DNA from: Comamonadaceae bacterium
GTDB lineage: Bacteria > Pseudomonadota > Gammaproteobacteria > Burkholderiales > Burkholderiaceae_C
Length of the DNA stretch: 61,382 nucleotides
Assembly: GCA_007280205.1 (NCBI GenBank)
Contig: QYPX01000072.1
Location: 1-61,382 of the forward strand
Reading direction: 5' to 3'
Part shown: piece after piece, positions 19,803 through 56,055 of the stretch
Numbering within the stretch: the first letter of the stretch is position 1
Layout of the letters: each line of letters opens with the position of its first letter
Translations under genes and position numbers: made by a program
The notes under the pieces: model-generated
What the model was told of the DNA's origin: nothing
Database searches by the model: none
What the model saw: the letters and a program-made list of their open reading frames with translations, nothing else

Positions 19803-19845
19803 AACTCACTTTTGAGCACTTTGAAAAAAGATGGAGAGCTATCCA

Positions 19846-22800
19846 ATGAGCACCCCACCCCAATCGCCTCCACGCTGGCAATTCTGGATCGATCGAGGCG
19901 GCACTTTCACCGACGTGGTGGGGCGCCGACCGGATGGCTCTCTTGTGACGCACAAACTGCTGAGCGAGAACCCGGAGCAGTACCGCGACGCAGCTGTGGC
20001 CGGCATCCGGCACCTGCTGGGTTTGCAGCCCGGTCAGGCGGTGACCCCAGAGCAGGTGGCCTGCGTGAAGATGGGAACCACGGTGGCCACCAACGCGCTG
20101 CTGGAGCGCAAGGGCGAGCCGACGCTGTTGGTGACAACGCGTGGTTTTCGGGATGCACTGCGCATTGCGTACCAGAACCGTCCCCGCATCTTTGACCGCA
20201 ACATCGTGCTGCCGGAACTGTTGTACAGCGCGGTGGTCGAAGCCAGGGAGCGCTGCGGTGCGCATGGTGATGTGATCGAAGCGCTTGACGAGGCACAGCT
20301 GAAGACAGAACTGTTGGAGCAGTACCAGCGCGGCCTGCGTTCGGTCGCCATTGTCTTCATGCACGGCTATCGCTATACGGCCCATGAAGTGGCGGCCCGG
20401 CGCATTGCGGCGGAGGTCGGCTTTAGCCAGATCAGTACCTCGCATGAGACCAGCCCGATGATGAAGCTGGTGAGCCGGGGCGACACCACGGTGGTTGACG
20501 CCTACCTGTCGCCGATTCTGAAACGCTACGTGCAGCAGGTGGCGCAGGAGATGCCCGGAGTGAAGCTGTTCTTCATGCAGTCCTCCGGTGGCCTGACGGA
20601 TGCCCACGCCTTCGCCGGCAAGGACGCCATTCTGAGCGGCCCGGCCGGTGGCATTGTCGGCATGGCGCGTACGGCGGCCATGGCCGGCATCGAGAAGGTG
20701 ATCGGCTTTGACATGGGAGGCACCTCCACCGATGTCTCGCATTACGCCGGTGAGTTCGAGCGCGAATTCGAAACCCAGGTCGCCGGTGTGCGCATGCGCG
20801 CACCCATGATGAGCATTCACACCGTGGCCGCAGGCGGTGGTTCGATTCTGGCCTTTGACGGTTCGCGCTTTCGGGTCGGTCCGCAGAGTGCCGGCGCCAA
20901 TCCGGGGCCGGTGAGTTACCGCCGTGGTGGGCCCTTGGCGGTGACCGATGCCAACGTGATGGTCGGCAAGATTGTTCCGCGCTATTTCCCCAAGGTCTTT
21001 GGCGTGGCCGCCAATGAGGCGCTGGACGGCGAAGTGGTGCGGGAAAAGTTTGCGGCACTGGCCGCGCAGACCGGCCGCGCGGCCGAGGACGTCGCCGAAG
21101 GCTTTATCAGCATCGCGGTGCAGCAGATGGCCAATGCCATCAAAAAGATTTCGGTGGCGCGCGGCTATGACGTCACGCGCTACACGCTGCAATGCTTTGG
21201 TGGCGCCGGTGGCCAGCATGCCTGCCTGGTGGCCGACGCACTGGGCATGACGCGTGTCTTCGTGCATCCGCTGGCGGGCGTGCTGTCAGCCTACGGCATG
21301 GGACTAGCGGACCAGAATGTGATTCGTGAACAGGCGGTGGAACTCAAGCTCGACGCGCAGGCGCTGCCGCAAATTGCGGCGCAGCTGGACCGTCTGGCTG
21401 CTCAGGCACAGGACGAGCTGCTGCGCCAGCAGGTCAGCCAGGGCGCGGTAGCCGTGCACCGGCGCGTGCATGTGCGCTACGAAGGCAGTGATGCTGCGCT
21501 GGTGGTGCCCTGTGCACCGCTCGCCGGTGACGCGCCCGAGGTGGTGCTGGCCGCGATCCAGTCCGCTTTTGAGGCAGCCTACCGGCAGCGCTTTTCTTTT
21601 CTGATGCAAGGCAAGGCGCTGGTGGTGGAGGCCGTTTCTGTCGAAGCGGTGGTAGCGGGCGATGCCCCGACCGAGCCGCGTCAGGCATTGCACGCTGTGC
21701 GTGATCTGCACGCCTGTGGCGCGGTGCGTGAGACCGTTCCCATGTACAGCGGTGGTCAGTGGGTGGATGCGGCGCTGCTGCTGCGCGAGGACCTGCGTCC
21801 GGGCGACATCGTGATGGGTCCGGCCATCATCGCCGAACAGAACGCAACCACCGTGATCGAACCCGGCTGGCAGGCCAGCGTGACCGAGCTCGATCACCTC
21901 GCGCTGCTGCGTCATGTCCCGCGCAGCGTGAAGTTTGCGGTTGGCACCAGTGTCGATCCGGTCTTGCTGGAAGTCTTTAACAACCTGTTCATGAACATCG
22001 CCGAGCAGATGGGGCTGCAACTGCAGAACACGGCGTACTCGGTCAACATCAAGGAGCGGCTGGACTTCAGCTGTGCGCTGTTCGATGCGGCGGGCAACCT
22101 GATTGCCAACGCCCCGCACATGCCGGTGCACCTGGGCTCCATGGGCGAGAGCATCAAGACCGTGATTCGTGAAAACGCCGGCAGCATGAACCCTGGCGAT
22201 GTTTATGTGCTGAACGACCCGTACCACGGTGGCACGCACCTGCCCGACATCACGGTCATCACGCCGGTGTACCTTGACGACAAGCCGACTTTTTATGTGG
22301 GCTCGCGTGGCCACCACGCCGACATTGGTGGCATCACGCCAGGATCGATGCCGCCGTTTTCCACGCGCATCGAGGAAGAGGGCGTGCAGATCAACAACGT
22401 CAAGCTGGTGGACCGTGGCGTGTTGCAGGAGGCCCAGATCATCGCGCTGCTAAGTGGACGCGCCGTCGCCGGGCCGCCCCAAGACGGCGCAGCCCCCTCG
22501 GGGGGCAGCGAGGACACGATAGTGCCGAGCGTGGGGGCCATGTACCCTTCACGCAACCCGCAACAGAATCTGGCGGATTTGAAAGCGCAGATTGCCGCCA
22601 ATGAAAAAGGCGTGCAGGAACTGCGCAAGATGGTCGAGCATTTCGGCCTCGACATGGTGCAGGCCTATATGCGCCATGTGCAGGACAACGCCGAGGAATC
22701 GGTGCGCCGCGTCATTACAAGCCTGAAAGACGGCAGCTTCACCTTGGCGCTGGACAACGGCGCGCAGATCCAGGTGGCGATCCGTGTCAACGTAACAGAG

Positions 22801-23553
22801 CGCAGTGCGGTGATCGATTTCACCGGCACTTCAATGCAGCAGAGCAACAACTTCAATGCACCCAAGGCCGTCTGCATGGCCGCGGTGCTGTACGTGTTTC
22901 GCACGCTGGTGGATGACGACATTCCGCTCAATGCGGGTTGCCTCAAACCACTTTCGGTGATCATTCCCGAGGGCTGCATGCTCAATCCCAATCCACCGGC
23001 TTCGGTGGTTGCGGGCAATGTGGAAACATCGAGTTGCATCACCAACGCGCTCTACGGCGCGCTGGGTGAGATGGCGGCCAGCCAGTGCACCATGAATAAC
23101 TTCACCTTTGGCAATGCACGCTATCAGTACTACGAAACCATCTCGGGTGGCTCCGGGGCCGGTAAGGGCTTCCACGGCACCGACGTCGTGCAAACCCACA
23201 TGACCAATTCGCGCATGACCGATCCCGAGGTGCTGGAGTTCCGCTTTCCGGTGCGGCTCGACAGTTACGCGATTCGCGCCGGATCGGGTGGTGCCGGTCA
23301 ATGGCATGGCGGCAATGGTGGCGTGCGCCGGGTGCGGTTTCTGGAACCCATGACTGCCAGTATTCTCTCCAACGGCCGGGTTCATCCTTCTTTTGGCATG
23401 GCCGGCGGGCTGTCCGGGCAGCCCGGTGTGAATCGGGTGCTGCGCGCCGATGGACGGGTGGAAGAACTGGCGCACATCGGGCAGGCCGAGATGCAGGTGG
23501 GCGACGTGTTCGAGATTGCTACGCCGGGTGGGGGAGGGTACGGCCGCCCATGA
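19846..23553 (+). CDS. Fused hydantoinase A/B, 5-oxoprolinase type
   Basis: A 1235-residue enzyme joining HyuA (about residues 10-690, with [11 protein letters not shown] at the start and [20 protein letters not shown] as ATP-binding segments) and HyuB (about 700-1230, [37 protein letters not shown]). The family opens cyclic amides such as 5-oxoproline or hydantoins with ATP. I chose the second ATG (19846), which has GGAGA 8 bp upstream; the frame is open from 19831. Residues about 874-898 are an insertion absent from relatives, encoded by a dispersed palindromic element (22467-22538) placed before the [13 protein letters not shown] segment. The divergent TRAP transporter probably supplies the substrate. 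Confidence 0.9.
22467..22538. repeat. Gene-invading palindromic element, copy 1 (inside hydantoinase)
   Basis: A 72-bp segment sharing most positions with 49425-49495. Its centre GCCCCC-TCG-GGGGGC is a perfect hairpin and its end is GAGCGTGGGGGC. It keeps the hydantoinase frame open and adds a Gly/Pro/Ser-rich peptide ([14 protein letters not shown]) not expected in the family. Confidence 0.85.
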
Positions 23554-35674: not shown

Positions 35675-36666
35675 GCGCGGCGGGCCGGGTCAACGCGCAC
35701 ACGCATCTGTACTCCGGGCTGGTGCCCTTTGGCATGCCCGAGCCCCAAGCGGTGCCGGAAAACTTTGTGCAGATTTTGCAGCGCGTCTGGTGGAAGCTGG
35801 ACCGCGCGCTCGATGCCGATTCACTGCGCGCTTCCGCCCGCTGGTACGTTGCAGAGGCGCGTCGCCTGGGTACGGTCGGGTTGATCGACCATCATGAGTC
35901 GCCGAACCTGATCGAAGGCTCGCTCGACATCCTGGCCGACGCTTGTCAGGAAGCTGGCATGCCCGCCGTGCTTTGCTACGGTGCGACCGAGCGCAACGGC
36001 GGACGTGAAGAAGCCCGACGTGGCCTGGCCGAGTGCCGCCGGTTTATCGAGTGCAACACGCGCTCCCTGGTGCGGGGCGTGATTGGGCTACATGCCTCCT
36101 TTACCGTGTCGGATGAAACGCTGCGTGAGGCCGCAGACTTGTGTCGCGAATTGCAAACGGTGATGCACGTGCACGTCGCTGAGGATCTCGCCGACGTGGC
36201 GGACGCACTGCGGCGCGGCTGGCCGGGCCCGCTGGAGCGGCTCGCTGAACTGGGTGCACTGCCGCCGGGCTCCATCATCGCGCACGGGGTTCACCTCGAT
36301 GCCTCACAGGTGCGGCGCTGCGAGCAGATGGGCTGCTGGCTGGTGCAAAACCCGCGCTCGAATCGTGGCAACCGCGTGGGCTATCCGGCCGCGCTGCGAG
36401 AGAGCCAGCATGTGGCACTGGGCAGCGATGGCTATCCGTCTGACATGCAGGCAGAACATCTGGCACTGCTGGAAGATGCGCCAGGCCACGGTGATTCCAT
36501 CGATGCAGCGTCGCAGCGTGCGGCCGCAAGTTATGCCCTGCTGGCTGAGCGCTTTGGTGGCAGCGTACCTTCGCTGGGCACTGGCACCGGCATGGATAGG
36601 GAAGCACTTCGCTCCGAAGCCATTGCCCAGGCAGCACGGCTATGGGAACGCATGGCCAATTTCTAA
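35671..36666 (+). CDS. SsnA-like metal-dependent amidohydrolase, compact form
   Basis: A 331-residue TIM-barrel hydrolase of the amidohydrolase superfamily. Metal ligands are visible: His10 and His12 ([10 protein letters not shown]), His166/His168 with Glu171 (MHVHVAED), His205/His208 (AHGVHLD) and Asp253 (LGSDGYPSD). It resembles SsnA/guanine-deaminase-like enzymes but lacks the N-terminal and C-terminal beta-sandwich found in the usual ~440-residue proteins. It is translationally coupled to the molybdenum hydroxylase. Opening or deaminating a hydroxylated heterocycle is the likely role; the exact substrate is unknown. Confidence 0.8.
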
Positions 36667-36670
36667 AACT

Positions 36671-36817
36671 GTCATCCCGGACAAAGGAGTTGTCACCCCA
36701 GACGGAGCGCTTGTCATCCCAGACGGAGCGCTTGTCATCCCAGACGGAGCGCTTGTCATCCCAGACGGGGAGTTTGTCATCCCAGACGGAGCGCTTGTCA
36801 TCCCAGACGGGGAGTTT
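36671..36817. repeat. Tandem array of seven 21-bp units
   Basis: Seven directly abutting 21-bp units of the form GTCATCCCAGACGGAGCGCTT, with variants ending GGGGAGTTT or ACAAAGGAGTT. The array starts 5 bp after the amidohydrolase stop codon. There are no spacers, so it is not a CRISPR array. The unit begins with the same GTCATCCC as the palindrome at 36818-36841, suggesting it grew from one half of that element. Confidence 0.9.
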
Positions 36818-36820
36818 GTC

Positions 36821-36841
36821 ATCCCGGACCTGATCCGGGAT
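36821..36841. repeat. REP-like palindrome, ATCCCGGA-N5-TCCGGGAT
   Basis: Perfect 8-bp arms with loop CCTGA at the end of the 21-bp array; same arm length and loop as the copy at 634-654. It could act as a 3'-end hairpin between the convergent SsnA-like and YgfK-like genes. Confidence 0.75.
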
Positions 36842-36862
36842 CCAGTGCCACGCTGAGACTGG

Positions 36863-39956: not shown

Positions 39957-40006
39957 TTGCGGGACAGACCGTAGTTACGCGTAGCGAACCAGTTCTGTCC
40001 CCAACT
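39957..40006 (+). repeat. GGGACAGA/TCTGTCCC element, copy A (livH-livM gap)
   Basis: A 50-bp element with ends TTGCGGGACAGACC and TTCTGTCCCCAACT, able to form a hairpin through GGGACAGA/TCTGTCCC. It fills most of the livH-livM gap, directly before the livM ribosome site AAGGA. Confidence 0.85.
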
Positions 40007-40020
40007 GATTAAGGATTGTT

Positions 40021-41097
40021 ATGAAACAACAAAGAAAAGTCACCGTGTTCCTGCTGACCGCAGCGGCCCTGCTGGTGTTGCCGCTGCTGTTGCAGGGCTT
40101 TGGCAACGCCTGGGTCCGCATTGCCGACATGGCGCTGCTTTATGTGCTGCTGGCGCTCGGGCTCAATATTGTGGTGGGCTACGCCGGTCTGCTCGATCTG
40201 GGCTATGTCGCCTTTTTTGCCATCGGCGCCTACATGTATGGACTGCTGGCGTCACCCCATTTGACCGAGACTTTTCAGCTGTTCACCGCCATGTTCCCGC
40301 AGGGCATGCACACGCCGCTGTGGATTGTGGTGCCGGCCGCCGCTGCGCTGGCCGGATTTTTTGGGGTCCTGCTGGGCGCGCCCACCTTGCGCTTGCGTGG
40401 CGACTATCTGGCCATCGTGACCTTGGGCTTTGGTGAAATCATCCGCGTCTTCATGAACAACCTGGATCATCCCGTCAACATCACCAACGGACCCAAGGGG
40501 CTGGGGCAGATTGACTCGCTGAGTTTCTTTGGTTTGAATCTGGGCAAGAGCGTGACGGTGGCGGGTTTTGAAGTGGCGTCGGTCTCGCTTTACTACTATC
40601 TGTTCCTGGCGCTGGTGGTGTTCAGTGTGGTGATTTCGCACCGGCTTGAAATGTCACGTGTCGGTCGTGCCTGGATGGCGATTCGCGAAGATGAAATCGC
40701 CGCCAAGGCGATGGGCATCAACACGCGTAATCTCAAATTGCTGGCATTCGGCATGGGCGCCACTTTTGGTGGCGTTTCGGGTGCGATGTTTGCGTCGTTT
40801 CAGGGTTTTATTTCACCCGAATCGTTCAGCCTGATGGAGTCGGTGATGATCGTCGCGATGGTGGTGCTCGGCGGCATCGGCCATTTGCCAGGCGTCATTC
40901 TGGGCGCCGTGCTGCTGTCGGCTCTGCCTGAAGTCTTGCGCTATGTGGCCGGGCCGCTGCAGGCCATGACCGATGGCCGCCTGGATTCAGCCATCCTGCG
41001 CCAACTGTTGATCGCCCTGGCCATGATCACCATCATGCTCTCCAGGCCGCGCGGTTTGTGGCCTTCGCCGGATCACGGCAAGGCACTGCAAAAGTAA
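40021..41097 (+). CDS. livM: Branched-chain-type ABC permease LivM
   Basis: A 358-residue inner-membrane permease with about ten hydrophobic segments. The motifs ALGLNIVVGYAGLLDLGYVA (about residues 44-63) and AIREDEIAAKAMGINTRNLK (about 220-239, contact with the ATPases) are clear. It forms the heterodimeric channel with LivH. It is separated from its neighbours by repeat copies A and B. Confidence 0.93.
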   Translation: MKQQRKVTVFLLTAAALLVLPLLLQGFGNAWVRIADMALLYVLLALGLNIVVGYAGLLDLGYVAFFAIGAYMYGLLASPHLTETFQLFTAMFPQGMHTPLWIVVPAAAALAGFFGVLLGAPTLRLRGDYLAIVTLGFGEIIRVFMNNLDHPVNITNGPKGLGQIDSLSFFGLNLGKSVTVAGFEVASVSLYYYLFLALVVFSVVISHRLEMSRVGRAWMAIREDEIAAKAMGINTRNLKLLAFGMGATFGGVSGAMFASFQGFISPESFSLMESVMIVAMVVLGGIGHLPGVILGAVLLSALPEVLRYVAGPLQAMTDGRLDSAILRQLLIALAMITIMLSRPRGLWPSPDHGKALQK

Positions 41098-41102
41098 TGA
41101 AA

Positions 41103-41152
41103 TTGCGGGACAGACCGTAGTTACGCGAAGCGAACAAGCTCTGTGCCCAACT
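41103..41152 (+). repeat. GGGACAGA/TCTGTCCC element, copy B (livM-livG gap)
   Basis: Same orientation and same length (50 bp) as copy A, with few substitutions (TCTGTGCCC on the right arm, so one stem mismatch). It fills the gap between the livM stop and the livG ribosome site. Confidence 0.85.
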
Positions 41153-41166
41153 GAATAAGGATCAAC

Positions 41167-46789: not shown

Positions 46790-46810
46790 ATTCACGAACA
46801 TCCTGTTTCG

Positions 46811-47011
46811 AGTTGGGGACAGAGCTGGCCCACAACGCGCGAGCTGCGGTCTGTCCCGCAAGATAGACAGCCGACATCCCGTTTCAAGTTGGGGACAGAG
46901 CACGCTCACTTCGTGTAGCTTTGGTCTGTCCCACAAGATAGACAGCCGACATCCTGTTTCAAGTTGGGGACAGAGCACGCTCACTTCGTGTAGCTTTGGT
47001 CTGTCCCACAA
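46811..47011 (-). repeat. GGGACAGA/TCTGTCCC element, copies D-F in tandem
   Basis: Three copies begin with AGTTGGGGACAGAGC at 46811, 46887 and 46962, each ending CTGTCCC(A/G)CAA (46861, 46936, 47011). They are joined by a conserved spacer (GATAGACAGCCGACATCC, then GTTTCA), so the true repeat unit is about 75 bp. Copies E and F are nearly identical; D differs in its centre. They fill the space between the Crp/Fnr gene and the convergent lpd stop and may act as bidirectional hairpins. Confidence 0.9.
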
Positions 47012-47015
47012 AATC

Positions 47016-48416
47016 TCAGATATGCAGTGCGTGGCCGAGCGCGCGCAGTGCGGCTTCCTGCACCGCTTCACCCAGTGTCGGGTGCGCATGGATGGTGGCT
47101 GCAACGTCTTCCAGACAGGCACCCATTTCCAGTGAATGTGAGAACGCCGTGCTCAGTTCGGAGACCCCGATCCCCACGGCTTGCCAGCCGACGATCCTGT
47201 GGTTGTCGCGCCGCGCCACCACGCGCACAAAACCGTCGCCGGCTTCCAGCGTCATGGCGCGTCCGTTGGCAGCGAACGGGAAACTGGCCTGGATGCAGTC
47301 CAGACCAGCCAGCGCCGCCTGCTGCGGCATCTGGCCCGCCACCACAATTTCGGGGTCCGTGAAGCAGACCGCAGCAATCGCCGCCGGCGCAAAGCGACGC
47401 CGCTTGCCGGCGATGATTTCGGCCACCAGTTCGCCTTGCGCCATGGCACGGTGCGCCAGCATGGGCTCACCCGTCACATCCCCAATCGCCCAGACGTTGC
47501 GCATCGAGGTTTTACACTGATCGTCGATCTTCACGGCGCGGCCATTCATGTCGAGCAGCAGGGACTCCAGGCCAAAGCCCTGGCTGCGCGGCGCGCGGCC
47601 AATCGCCACCAGCACCTGATCGGCTGGCAGTTCCGAGATTTCACCACTCGCGTTGCTGAGCTGCACCGCATCGCCCGCTGCGTTGAGCCCCCGCACCTTG
47701 CAGCCCAGCAGCACTTGCACGCCGAGTTTGCGCAGCGAGGCAGCGACCGGCTTCACCAGTTCCTCGTCGTAGATCGGCAGGATGCGCTCCAGCGCTTCCA
47801 CCACGGTCACTTCAGCGCCGAGCTTGCGGTAGACGATGCCGAGTTCGAGGCCGATATAGCCGGCGCCGACCACCACCATGCGTTTCGGTAGTGTGGTCGG
47901 TGACAGCGCCTGTGTCGAGGAGATGACGCGACCGCCAAACGGCAGACCCGGCAGGGTGACTTCGCTGGAGCCGGTCGCCAGCAGCAGGTGCTCGCAAACG
48001 ATGCGTTGCGCTGCTGCGGCGTTGGCTGGCTGCACCTCGACCGTCTTGCCGTCGACGACCCGCGCCCAGCCTTTGATGACGGTGACGCCGTTCTTCTTGA
48101 GCAAGGCTGCCACACCCTGCGTCAGACGCCGGACGATGCCGTCTTTCCAGCGCACGGTCTGCGTCAGGTCAATGCGCGGCGCGTCAACCTGGATGCCCAG
48201 GGGCGATTTGCCGGCGTAGTGGCAGGTTTGGTGAAACGCCTCGGCGGCATGGATCAGTGCCTTGGACGGAATGCAGCCAATGTTCAGACAGGTGCCGCCG
48301 AGTTGTTCGCCCTCGATCAGCGTGGTGGTGATACCGAGTTGCCCGGCACGAATGGCGGCGACATAGCCACCGGGACCGCCGCCAATGATGAGCAGCGTGG
48401 TTTGCAGTGTCTCCAT
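47016..48416 (-). CDS. lpdV: Dihydrolipoyl dehydrogenase (E3) of the branched-chain complex
   Basis: A 466-residue flavoenzyme that reoxidises the lipoyl arm of E2 with NAD+. FAD site [20 protein letters not shown], redox disulfide [20 protein letters not shown] (about residues 40-59), NAD site [20 protein letters not shown] (about 180-199), and catalytic His in [16 protein letters not shown] are present. Last gene of the operon E1alpha-E1beta-E2-E3, 3 bp after the E2 stop. Confidence 0.93.
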
Positions 48417-48419
48417 GGC

Positions 48420-49754
48420 TTACTCCACGAACAGGGTGGCCGGGCACTCAAGATAGCCCCGCAGCAGTTGGACAAACTCGGCGCCGTGCATGCCGTCCAC
48501 CACGCGATGGTCGAAAGAGGAAGACAGGTTCATCATCTGCCGCGCCACCACCGCGCCATTGCGGATCATGGGTCGCTCGACCATGCGGTTCACGCCCACG
48601 ATGGCGACTTCCGGGTGGTTGATGACCGGTGTGCTGACGATGCCGCCGAGCGCTCCGAGGCTGGTGATAGTGATGGTGGATCCTGTCAGTTCCTCGCGTG
48701 TGACCTTGCCGGCGCGCGCCGCCTCGCTCAGGCGCAGCACCTCGGCGGCGCAGGCCCACAGGTCGCGCGTTTCGGCGTGGCGCAAGACGGGCACCATGAG
48801 CCCGCCATCGGTCTGCGTTGCCACGCCCAGATGCACGGCTGCATAGCGCGTCACCACCGCGCCCTCGTCGTCGTAGCGCGCGTTGACCTGCGGAAACTCG
48901 CGCACCGCCAGTACCACGGCACGCACCAGGAAGGGCATCAGGGTCAGGCGAGGGCGCTGTGTGCCGTACTTGGCATTCAGGCGCGTGCGCAGGGCTTCAA
49001 GCTCGGTCACATCGATCTCTTCGACGTAAGTGAAGTGCGGTATGCGGCGCTTGGCCTCCTGCATCTTCTGCGCAATCTTGCGCCGCAGGCCAATCACCGG
49101 GATCGATTCTTCGGCGCTGCGCTGGGTGTAACGCTGGTCGGCCTGCGTCGCACTGGTCGCTTGTCCGGCACGGCCCGCATAGGCGTCCAAGTCCTGCTGC
49201 GTGATGCGCCCCGCCATTCCCGTACCCGCTACAAACTGCAACTCAATGCCAAGGTCCCAGGCGCGGCGTCGCACTGCGGGGGAGGCGATCGGTTTGTCGC
49301 CGCTGGCGCGGGCATGAACGGTGGCAACTCCCGTTGCAGCGGCCGCTTCCCGCTGTGCAGGCGGTGGTGCCGCGACCGTCGCTGTCGGCTCGACGACGGT
49401 CGCGGGTGCCGACGATCGATCCGGCGCCGGGCCGCCTCAAGCCGGATCAGCCCCCTCGGGGGGCAGCGACGACGCGATGCGCGGAGCGTGGGGGCTTGAT
49501 TTTCCCGTGCCTTCGACTTCAATCTGAATCAGGTCAGAGCCAACAGCCATCACCTGGCCGACGGCGCCACCCAGCAAGAGCACCTTGCCAGCCACCGGTG
49601 ATGGAATTTCGACCGTGGCCTTGTCGGTCATGACATCGGCCAGAATCTGGTCTTCGGCCACCAGATCGCCGACCTTGACATACCAGGCGACAAGCTCGAC
49701 TTCGGCAATGCCTTCGCCAATGTCGGGCATCTTGATTGTGTGAATTCCCATCAT
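48420..49754 (-). pseudogene. bkdB: Dihydrolipoyl acyltransferase (E2), interrupted by in-frame TGA
   Basis: E2 of the branched-chain 2-oxoacid dehydrogenase complex, broken into two same-frame pieces by TGA at 49437-49439. The first piece (105 residues from the ATG at 49754, overlapping the E1beta stop) is a lipoyl domain with the lipoylated Lys in MTDKATVEIPSP. Beyond the stop an Ala/Pro linker continues to the subunit-binding domain (SPAVRRRAWDLGIEL) and the catalytic domain with SSSFDHRVVDGMHG. The stop lies in a palindromic element inserted in the linker; the other copy has TGG at the matching codon. Read through, the protein would be about 444 residues, a normal length. Readthrough, restart downstream or a sequencing error are alternatives to loss. 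Confidence 0.85.
49425..49495. repeat. Gene-invading palindromic element, copy 2 (inside E2 linker)
   Basis: A 71-bp segment matching 22467-22538 over most of its length, with the identical core GCCCCCTCGGGGGGCAGCGA and identical 12-bp right end GAGCGTGGGGGC. E2 reads it in the antisense orientation compared with the hydantoinase. The position 49437 is T where copy 1 has C, which creates the stop codon. Confidence 0.85.
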
Positions 49755-50772
49755 GCCTCCAGCGTGCGTTTGAACGCAGCGCCCACGCGCGCCGGTCCGG
49801 GAAAGTAAGCCCATTCCTGGGCATGCGGGTAGGGTGTGTCCCAGCCGGTCACGCGCTCGATCGGTGCTTCCAGGTGATAGAAACAGTGCTCCTGGATCAG
49901 TGACACCAGTTCCGCGCCGAAGCCGCTGGTGCGTGTTGCTTCATGCAGCACGATGCAGCGTCCGGTCTTCTTGACGGAGTTGACGATAGTCTCCAGATCA
50001 AGCGGCCAGATCGAGCGCAGGTCGATGATCTCGGCGTCGATGCCGGTCTCGTTGGCGGCGGCCTCGGCCACAAAAACCATGGTGCCGTAGGTAATGACGG
50101 TCAGGGCCTGGCCCGGCCTGAATACTGCTGCCGTGTCCAACGGAACTGTGTAATAGCCCTCGGGCACATTGCCCATAGCGTGCTTGGACCAGGGCACCAC
50201 CGGCTTGTCGTGGTGGCCATCAAACGGGCCGTTGTAGAGGCGTTTGGGTTCCAGAAAGATCACGGGGTCGTCGTTCTCGATCGAGGCAATCAGCAGACCC
50301 TTGGCGTCGTAGGGATTCGATGGCATCACGGTGCGCAGACCGCAGACCTGGGTGAACACGGATTCCGGGCTCTGGCTGTGTGTCTGGCCGCCGTAGATGC
50401 CACCGCCGCAGGGCATGCGGATCGTGATCGGTGCCGTGAAATCGCCGACCGAGCGGTAGCGCAGGCGCGCTGCCTCCGACACGATCTGATCGGTTGCCGG
50501 GTAAACGTAATCTGCAAACTGGATTTCGATCACCGGGCGCAGGCCGTAGGCACCCATGCCCACCGCTGTGCCAACGATGCCGCCTTCGGAAATCGGCGCG
50601 TCGAACACGCGCGAGGTGCCGTACTTCTTCTGCAGACCTTCGGTGCAGCGAAAGACGCCGCCAAAATAGCCAACGTCCTGGCCGTAGACAACGACGTTGT
50701 CGTCGCGCTCCAGCATCACATCCATGGCCGAGCGCAGCGCCTGGATCATCGTCATAGGGGTGGTTTCCATCA

Positions 50773-54466: not shown

Positions 54467-56055
54467 CGACAGCGCGCCTTCAGCTTACTGACATCAGCAA
54501 GGGCTATCCTGGTGTGCGCGCCAATGACGCGGTGTCGATGAGCGTCATGCCGGGCGAAATCCATGCGGTTCTGGGTGAAAACGGCGCTGGCAAATCGACC
54601 CTGATGAAGATCATTTACGGTGCGGTCAAGCCCGACGCCGGCAGCATTCTGTTCAACGGCCAGCCGGTGCAGATCCGCAACCCGCAGGAAGCGCGCGCCT
54701 TGGGCGTCGCCATGGTGTTTCAGCACTTCAGCCTGTTTGGCACCATCACCGTGGCCGAGAACGTCTGGCTGGGGCTGGACAAGAGCCTGAGTCTGGCCGA
54801 AGTGACGCAGAGCATCACTGCCAAGGCGTCCGAGTACGGACTCGACATAGACCCGACGCGCCCGGTGCACACCTTGAGTGTGGGTGAGATGCAGCGCGTT
54901 GAAATCATCCGCGCTTTGCTGACGCAGCCGCAACTGCTGATTCTCGATGAGCCGACGTCGGTGCTGGTGCCGCAAGCCGTGGAGAAGCTGTTTGTGGTGC
55001 TGAAAAAAGTGGCCAGCGCGGGTTGCAGCATTCTGTACATCAGCCACAAGCTGCATGAAATCCGCGCGCTGTGCGACGTCTGTACCGTGTTGCGCAGCGG
55101 CAGGGTGACCGGAGTTTGCCAGCCGGCGCAGGAGTCCAATGCCTCTTTGTCGCGCCTGATGATTGGGGCTGAGCCGCCCAAACTGACGCGGCGGCAGTCG
55201 CAACTGGGTGCACCGGTGCTGCGTGTGTGCGCGCTGTCGCTGCCGCGCGAGGACCAGTTCGGTGTGGATCTCCACGATGTCACGCTCGAAGTTCATGCCG
55301 GCGAGGTGGTGGGCATTGCGGGTGTTTCGGGCAATGGGCAAAAGGAGTTGCTCTACGCCTTGTCGGGCGAGGATGTTCGCTCGCCAAAGGGAACGATTGA
55401 GATCGGCGACGTCGACGCATCGGGCTTGCGTCCGAAGGCGCGGCGCCAGCTTGGCCTGCATTTTGTTCCCGAGGAGCGGCTTGGACGGGGCGCGGTACCG
55501 ACGTTAGGCCTCTCACACAACCTGTTGCTGACACGCAGCGAAGCCATTTCGCATCCGCGCTTTGCCGGTGGCTGGATCGGTGTCAAGCAGCTTGAAGGCC
55601 ATGCCAGGCGCATCATCGAACGCTTCCATATCAAGGCTTCCGGTCCGACTGCAGTGGCGCGCTCACTCTCCGGCGGCAATCTGCAGAAGTACATCGTCGG
55701 TCGGGAGATTGACGCCAATCCCAAGTTGTTCATCGTGTCGCAGCCGACCTGGGGTGTGGATGTAGGCGCAGCAGCGCAGATTCGGGGTGAAATTCTGGCC
55801 ATGCGCGACGCCGGCTGTGCCGTGCTGCTGGTCAGCGAAGAGCTCGACGAGTTGTTCGAACTCTGCGACCGCGTGCACGTGATGGCGCGCGGTCGCCTCT
55901 CGCCGGCCTTGCCGATCGCCCAGGCGACGGTTGAGAAAGTGGGGGAGTGGATGAGCGGTCTTTGGGATCTTGCGGGACAGACCGCAGTTACGCGAAGCGA
56001 ACCAGCTCTGTCCCCAACACGAAACGAGATGTTCACCGGGGCGCAGCATGCTTAG
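54463..56055 (+). CDS. BMP-type nucleoside ABC importer ATPase (double ATPase)
   Basis: A 530-residue protein with two tandem nucleotide-binding domains, as in YufO/RbsA-like importers. The N-terminal half has Walker A GENGAGKS (about residues 38-45) and signature LSVGEMQRVEIIRAL. The C-terminal half has a degenerate Walker A near GVSGNGQKEL (about 286-295) and LSGGNLQKYIVGREI. The last ~30 residues after MSGLWDLA are encoded by repeat copy G (55970-56018) and run to the stop at 56053-56055, a tail foreign to the family. Overlaps thrH and the first permease gene. Confidence 0.9.
   Translation: MTTARLQLTDISKGYPGVRANDAVSMSVMPGEIHAVLGENGAGKSTLMKIIYGAVKPDAGSILFNGQPVQIRNPQEARALGVAMVFQHFSLFGTITVAENVWLGLDKSLSLAEVTQSITAKASEYGLDIDPTRPVHTLSVGEMQRVEIIRALLTQPQLLILDEPTSVLVPQAVEKLFVVLKKVASAGCSILYISHKLHEIRALCDVCTVLRSGRVTGVCQPAQESNASLSRLMIGAEPPKLTRRQSQLGAPVLRVCALSLPREDQFGVDLHDVTLEVHAGEVVGIAGVSGNGQKELLYALSGEDVRSPKGTIEIGDVDASGLRPKARRQLGLHFVPEERLGRGAVPTLGLSHNLLLTRSEAISHPRFAGGWIGVKQLEGHARRIIERFHIKASGPTAVARSLSGGNLQKYIVGREIDANPKLFIVSQPTWGVDVGAAAQIRGEILAMRDAGCAVLLVSEELDELFELCDRVHVMARGRLSPALPIAQATVEKVGEWMSGLWDLAGQTAVTRSEPALSPTRNEMFTGAQHA
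55970..56018 (+). repeat. GGGACAGA/TCTGTCCC element, copy G (within ATPase 3' end)
   Basis: TTGCGGGACAGACCGCAGTT at the left and CAGCTCTGTCCCCAAC at the right, nearly the same as copy A (39957-40006). Here it lies in frame inside the coding sequence and encodes AGQTAVTRSEPALSPT. Confidence 0.88.

Follow-up and report, generated by a model that had tools for sequence, protein, structure and literature searches.

Palindromic repeats that lie in frame within genes are best known from Rickettsia. The accessible part of the literature describes the Rickettsia palindromic elements (RPEs) as repeats placed in frame in numerous genes whose products are likely functional proteins (PMC3733652). Two further groups resemble the element treated here by description, namely the GTAG/CGTC REP elements, short palindromes found inside ORFs with hosts in DNA repair and replication (PMC3733652), and the enterobacterial RU elements, small mobile repeats with open frames that lie within genes (PMC2759123). 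The Beta-proteobacterial Repeat Element (BRE) is a GC-rich repeat of 75-91 bp, with partial copies of 40-60 bp and tandem arrays whose units are separated by few bases, described in Bordetella and in Comamonadaceae (Polaromonas, Rhodoferax, Acidovorax, Delftia) (Hot et al., 2011; PMC3110155). BRE copies are usually intergenic, with some lying entirely within coding sequences, and their genomic contexts differ between species, the published Bordetella loci being lexA and sphB3; furthermore, one BRE locus of Bordetella is reported to yield sRNAs (Hot et al., 2011; PMC3110155). Frames, host proteins, empty sites and structure are not analyzed in the portion of that report available to us (PMC3110155), and a literature search, with most subscription journals outside it, found no in-frame BRE copies beyond the remark of Hot et al.

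The DNA analyzed here (the window, 61,382 nt from a Comamonadaceae bacterium) is one contig (C239) of a 276-contig, 4.19 Mb assembly that is 84.2% complete. It carries a gene with an insertion:

19831-23553, plus strand: fused hydantoinase/oxoprolinase HyuAB, 1240 amino acids, open frame, host of the insertion.
22459-22542, plus strand: inserted codons in HyuAB, from the orthologue alignment, with ends uncertain by a few bases.

HyuAB translates without a stop through the element, and a protein-family scan finds Hydant_A_N, Hydantoinase_A, Hydant_A_C and a single Hydantoinase_B match (residues 709-1240) that crosses it. The original prediction of a palindromic segment in frame inside a hydantoinase gene is thus borne out; the inserted codons reach slightly wider than the predicted extent of 22467-22538, from about 22459 to 22542. 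Relative to empty sites the insert is a net gain of 78 bp in the DNA alignment, and its GC content, measured on 22460-22541, is 78% as against 61% for the window. The encoded peptide is loop-like. In the alignment with the solved N-methylhydantoinase 7hk5, two residues (866-867) stand opposite query residues 176-207, and the insert is shown to fall at a two-residue turn of this relative. An AlphaFold model of the HyuB half (26-row alignment) reached a mean pLDDT of 48.2 and is readable only as coil between two helices, at 176-210.

When 89 genomes of the genus were searched with the protein, 60 had a match, and 30 HyuAB loci were read, of which L045 ends before the site, so that 29 sites were readable, the window included. 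The site is filled in the window (L031) and in G062 (L033) and is empty in the other 27, where the protein reads like LLxSGxYPSRN or YPARN and the DNA alignment shows a gap. Relatives with an empty site include G073, G069 and G077, whose match rows show 95-96% identity to the window protein. The orthologue alignment had been named in the original prediction as the check that could overturn it, and since 27 of the 29 readable sites are without the peptide, it is read as an insertion and not as an ancestral loop. For the 12 named plasmid homologues listed, the closest of which is Acidovorax sp. DW039 (77.9%), subtraction of match coordinates makes the HyuAB span 72-88 bp shorter than the query stretch, which suggests that these homologues lack the insert as well. 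In HyuAB, G062 is farther from the window than are relatives without the element, so that recombination or loss must be invoked; a search for an identity tract from a G062-like HyuAB donor found no clear raised identity outside the element itself.

The element is about 80 bp long and is built from a variable stem P1 with a fixed loop, a GCCCCC/GGGGGC hairpin P2 and a variable stem P3, arranged as follows in the window copy:

22460-22490, plus strand: hairpin P1, with arms GCGCCGTC (22460-22467) and GACGGCGC (22483-22490), from folds and arm covariation.
22468-22482, plus strand: conserved loop of P1, GCCGGGCCGCCCCAA.
22492-22506, plus strand: hairpin P2a, GCCCCC tc GGGGGGC, from folds.
22512-22526, plus strand: hairpin P3, a short covarying stem, placed in the window copy by eye.

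The GCCCCC of P2 can alternatively pair with the terminal GGGGGC (22533-22538), a pairing that is mutually exclusive with P2a. Covariation was scored on 42 of the 45 extracted copies (80-84 bp as cut by the pattern; L186, L195 and L217 omitted). Paired cells in the proposed structure amount to 89.1%, compared with 74.9% in shuffles and 38-51% in slid versions, and the covariation score is 0.371 compared with 0.129 (0/500 shuffles for both). Two of the five measures separate less from the shuffles, namely the number of pairs changed on both sides (11 versus 8.7; 2/500), which includes all seven P1 pairs, and further pair types (32 versus 28.7; 20/500). The mean complementary run of the P1 arms is 5.5 versus 3.2 in shuffles, the highest of 300 shuffles giving 3.6. 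By a count from the covariation table, G-U pairs make up only 8 of the 426 paired cells of P1 and P3. RNA helices usually pass through G-U pairs. Because the stems covary with almost no G-U, the pattern suggests that P1 and P3 pair at the DNA level, or that their arms are renewed together. The fold energy of the window copy is ordinary for its composition (z of -0.80 as DNA and -1.16 as RNA), and such energies of single copies are uninformative.

A second copy lies in the gene of an E2 acyltransferase:

49418-49495, plus strand: second copy of the element, with its host gene on the minus strand.
49437-49814, minus strand: N-terminal part of the E2 acyltransferase (lipoyl domain), ending at a TGA inside the element.
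48420-49274, minus strand: E3-binding and catalytic portion of this E2, sharing the frame of the N-terminal part.

Indeed, the recurrence that had been noted near 49425-49495 is found as an ungapped 58-nt stretch of 88% identity common to 22463-22520 and 49421-49478. The 19-nt core (up to three mismatches) occurs twice in the window, whereas 100 shuffles contain it 0.03 times on average and never twice, and a chance repeat is ruled out by this test. The copy is antisense to its host, between the lipoyl and E3-binding domains, and the ORFs on its two sides share one frame, interrupted by one TGA within the element. Among ten relatives, the E2 gene carries the element with an open frame in four (G074, G062, G078, G073) and lacks it in six; G069 and G071, which gave no match, are outside the ten. 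Thus, intact E2 copies exist in relatives of the genome whose own copy holds a stop.

The original prediction proposed a search of the genome for the repeat and a list of its intragenic copies. This search gave 39 matches at E <= 0.01 (40 of the 46 initial candidates were scored), of which 30 are the loci of the genome search and nine come from a later extraction. As judged from coding character and protein-family matches, 21 of these copies lie in frame in 19 genes that stay open through the element: HyuAB, threonine aldolase, ComEC, PutA, HrpA, GcvT, TopB, IcmF, MurD, FdhD, acetoacetyl-CoA ligase (three tandem copies), an RND pump, a DUF2126 protein, an AMP-ligase, a DAO/GCV_T protein, a BoxA-like reductase, an APH-fold (AmgK-like) kinase, a MetX-like hydrolase and an Mpl-like Mur ligase. 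The names BoxA, AmgK, MetX and Mpl are what we take broader family matches to mean. One further copy, that in E2, is inside a gene with a stop, and 11 copies are at junctions between ORFs of two different families:

L003: between adenylosuccinate lyase and YaeQ.
L007, L009 and L028: in a branched-chain transporter run.
L011: between Era-type and RecO genes.
L022: between two different families.
L026: between T2SSE and T2SSF.
L030: between HPr and a PEP-utilising enzyme (PtsI-type).
L173, L174 and L179: between ExbB and ExbD-type genes.

The remaining six, which lie at contig ends or offer one flank only, are L002 and five copies at contig ends (L006, L020, L021, L171, L178). That copies outside open frames are gene breakers was considered and rejected, the 11 tested sitting between two different families; several of the intergenic copies (L009/L028, L011, L026, L030, L174, L179) are at tight junctions of consecutive genes.

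The frame is open in 21 of the 22 intragenic copies of this genome, whereas 29% would be expected at random placement (binomial 1e-10, or 1e-9 with the three tandem copies counted as one). The codon-score classifier needs 20 codons on each side and missed L008 and L015, which were added to the spanning copies because ComEC and acetoacetate-CoA ligase match on them. All six frames of the element are mostly stop-free (32-39 of 42 copies). The 45 spanning copies classified, which are not all independent and include the doubtful L137 and L139, fall into forward frames 0, 1 and 2 in 21, 8 and 1 cases and into the reverse frames in 6, 8 and 1 cases, with up to four mismatches in the loop allowed for 13 of them. 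A chi-square test of frame use gave p 2.6e-6 for 32 copies, treated as independent although they are not; 12 spanning copies without the exact loop, seven of them in reverse orientation, were left out of it and were classified later together with L008. Two variants of the element keep the frame of their hosts. L008 (ComEC) and L177 (Mpl-like) are composite, with about 75 nt of further hairpins nested in P2, and in ComEC the composite copy is followed by a normal one; in L023 (FdhD) and L025 (AmgK-like) an extra palindrome, ATCGGC..GCCGAT, is nested in the right half.

Relatives differ at fixed sites in whether they carry the element, as read for 11 genes with the own-genome duplicates L073, L086, L103 and L115 excluded from the relatives. 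The site is empty in all relatives read for GcvT (10/10), the BoxA-like reductase (8/8), the RND pump (6/6), TopB (5/5), IcmF (3/3) and HrpA (3/3). Further relatives with split matches at the same sites, such as G069 in GcvT, G062 in TopB and G078 in the BoxA-like gene, may be filled. For the MetX-like hydrolase three of five relatives are empty, and two (L065, L080) have a 30-nt in-frame stretch that resembles the right end of the element; for the AmgK-like kinase four of five are empty and one (L093) has a short in-frame stretch like a remnant. PutA is empty in five of six, and the sixth, G071, carries an independent copy that lies a few codons away in reverse orientation. None of the four relatives read for MurD has an intact element, L085 being longer and hard to interpret, nor has the one read for threonine aldolase; no relative was obtained for ComEC and FdhD in this comparison. 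From this insertion polymorphism we infer that the element is mobile, as the original prediction had it, although no transposase was found. A MITE would be expected to have terminal inverted repeats and a constant target-site duplication. By eye, direct repeats are visible at GcvT (GACAT) and HrpA (CCAG) and are not clear at the other sites read, so that a consistent target-site duplication was not found among them; the left end of the element varies with the P1 stem.

These site comparisons bear on two rival readings. An open frame and a loop-like peptide are what would be seen if the peptide were an ancestral surface loop of HyuAB and its palindrome a coincidence of codon choice; this is refuted by the 27 empty HyuAB sites, and related DNA lies within the open frames of 18 other genes in the same genome, in either orientation and in several frames, which leaves the idea with hardly any probability. 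A more serious proposal is that copies shared by distant relatives (MetX-like, TopB, IcmF, AmgK-like, AacS) each go back to one ancient insertion per gene that was kept as useful. Peptides at apparently the same sites in G002, G003 and G302 (seen by eye), the remnants in MetX-like genes of relatives and the near absence of the Arg-rich frames (2 of the 45 classified copies, versus 21 in forward frame 0) would fit with it. However, the site is empty in several close relatives, and PutA took two insertions of opposite orientation; hot spots in tolerant loops are therefore favoured, and single ancient insertions are regarded as possible but rather doubtful.

Genomes in one or two contigs served as a control for errors of assembly. 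In G302, a single-contig genome of another genus, 41 matching places were found (40 of 105 candidates scored), and 18 of the 30 copies read span a frame, L165 doubtfully so. Sixteen of the 18 spanning ORFs were scanned (L170 was not), and all 16 match Pfam families, although in some the matched domain itself does not cross the element; the hosts include RecQ, GlnD, dihydroxy-acid dehydratase (IlvD), a PurL-type protein, biotin carboxylase, TopB and pyruvate dehydrogenase E1, and two copies (L152, L169) lie 0.9 kb apart within one P-type ATPase. Six of 20 copies span an open frame in G002, G003 and G030 (1-2 contigs each; L137 is doubtful). G302 and the genome of the window are a non-random choice. 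The element is present in 78 of the 89 genomes of the genus, with G005 and G060 among those that gave no match, in 212 of 250 sampled genomes of the family (107 of 115 genera) and in 38 of 299 of the order, and BRE-like elements occur on Variovorax, Acidovorax and Azoarcus plasmids. A phage origin was rejected, with no match in a phage collection of 50,697 records.

By description the element likely belongs to the BRE family, as far as the accessible part of the original report allows a comparison (PMC3110155). Like BRE, it is short (80-84 bp in 42 copies) and GC-rich (0.78 in the window copy), it has shorter matches in its own genome, its hosts include Bordetella and Comamonadaceae, and it forms tandem units, as in arrays of period 76 and 81 (L215, L217) and in the three copies within the acetoacetyl-CoA ligase gene. 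The same architecture is found in Bordetella genomosp. 2 AU8256 (three matches below E = 1e-4), where the one array read has 3.4 copies of period 76 and lies between a metallophosphatase and an Na/H exchanger, and in Achromobacter veterisilvae LMG 30378 (54 matches at E up to 10, with an array of period 81). By contrast with the usually intergenic position reported for BRE, 21 of the 39 matches in the genome of the window are read through in conserved genes. The statement that no such element was known from this lineage has to be corrected in that a described family fits and some of its copies were placed within coding sequences (PMC3110155), whereas the resemblance to RPEs holds in behaviour, since the element lies in frame in many unrelated proteins and differs in presence between relatives. 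This likeness is one of behaviour only, seen here for 19 genes with 21 copies between them; beta-proteobacteria, whose GC-rich genomes measure several Mb, take the place of obligate intracellular bacteria as hosts, and covariation of the stems across copies is shown for the element described here (RPEs by the available description in PMC3733652). The element shares with the GTAG/CGTC REPs, as partly described in PMC3733652, hosts in repair and replication (RecQ, TopB and a UvrA-like ORF), but it is longer, has three stems and no linked RAYT was found. RU elements, compared by description, belong to another lineage and are longer (103-168 bp; PMC2759123, as far as accessible).

How such an element might be moved, and whether it is kept for a function, can be weighed with the same data. 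Its size and palindromes are REP-like, and 79 of the 89 genomes analyzed for the genus have a match to PF01797 (Y1 transposase), in many cases within a single frame of about 230-300 amino acids, as would be expected if a Y1 (RAYT) transposase mobilized an element of REP type. However, neither the BRE core nor the loop pattern occurs in any of 30 PF01797 loci read (L240-L269), and G061, G069 and G071 have BRE with no PF01797 match, the reverse case also occurring, so that such a transposase is quite an improbable agent. A role as functional RNA or as regulatory signal (a terminator, attenuator or source of sRNAs), with selection for regulation keeping the element within genes, is likewise unlikely. 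This would account for the strong covariation of the stems, the two mutually exclusive pairings of P2 and the copies outside genes at junctions inside apparent operons, and it would agree with the sRNAs reported, in the available part of the source, from a Bordetella BRE locus (Hot et al., 2011; PMC3110155); but copies inside genes have either orientation, hardly any G-U pairs occur, no common theme is visible among the host genes and presence is not conserved at the sites read in relatives. Furthermore, an Rfam search of the window gave two weak matches at E up to 1, neither of them at the element, and membership in a known RNA family was rejected.

Other repeats were observed alongside the element. 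A second, unrelated in-frame element of about 72-90 bp, with inverted ends AATTAATTGGGGTCAGAC and GTCTGACCCCAATTAATT, lies elsewhere in HyuAB of L033 (G062) and L043 (G069), with shorter stretches of it in L035 and L048. Its ends match the GGGGWSAS motif given for tyrosine-transposase TIR families in the accessible part of PMC3733652, and 26-nt matches to its end occur in two PF01797 loci, L262 and L269. The window holds another repeat family with GGGGWSAS-like ends such as GGGGACAGAGC and GTCTGTCCC, at 39957-40016, 41103-41162, 46796-47018 and 55963-56032; two of its copies stand immediately before successive ORFs (ATG at 40021 and 41167) that by eye look like transporters, where an AAGGA in each could serve as ribosome site. 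A tandem array of the 21-bp unit TGTCATCCCAGACGGAGCGCT occupies 36649-36850.

Taken together, the element is very probably a mobile, non-autonomous structured repeat, most likely the BRE of Burkholderiales, that was inserted in frame in HyuAB within the genus. New copies would land in either orientation, and those that break genes would be purged, so that the survivors would be copies between genes or copies that add 3n bases in a tolerant loop. Surviving intragenic copies would then be near-neutral, putatively translated passengers that in-frame deletion may erode over time and recombination may sometimes spread. Because the variable stems keep Watson-Crick pairing with almost no G-U, the element may move, or be copied, as a single-stranded DNA hairpin. 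A bolder proposal, which we consider tentative and rather unlikely, is that BRE is a single-stranded DNA hairpin element of an unnamed mobility system, with arms renewed by templated copying in such a way that their sequence drifts while they still pair, that has been tuned by the peptides of its usable frames for life inside genes.

Judged by their gene sequences, these bacteria apparently produce proteins that contain a stretch of mobile DNA in translated form. RPE-like behaviour is now seen in beta-proteobacteria with large genomes, for about half of the copies that a widespread repeat has in the genome of the window, and the hosts include MurD, GcvT and TopB as well as, in another genus, PurL, IlvD and RecQ. 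Since natural filled and empty alleles exist in close relatives, the effect on the enzyme, the movement and the unused frames are testable with matched pairs. If the view of BRE as a hairpin element tuned for life inside genes is true, BRE would supply core enzymes of free-living beta-proteobacteria with translated insertions throughout the order.
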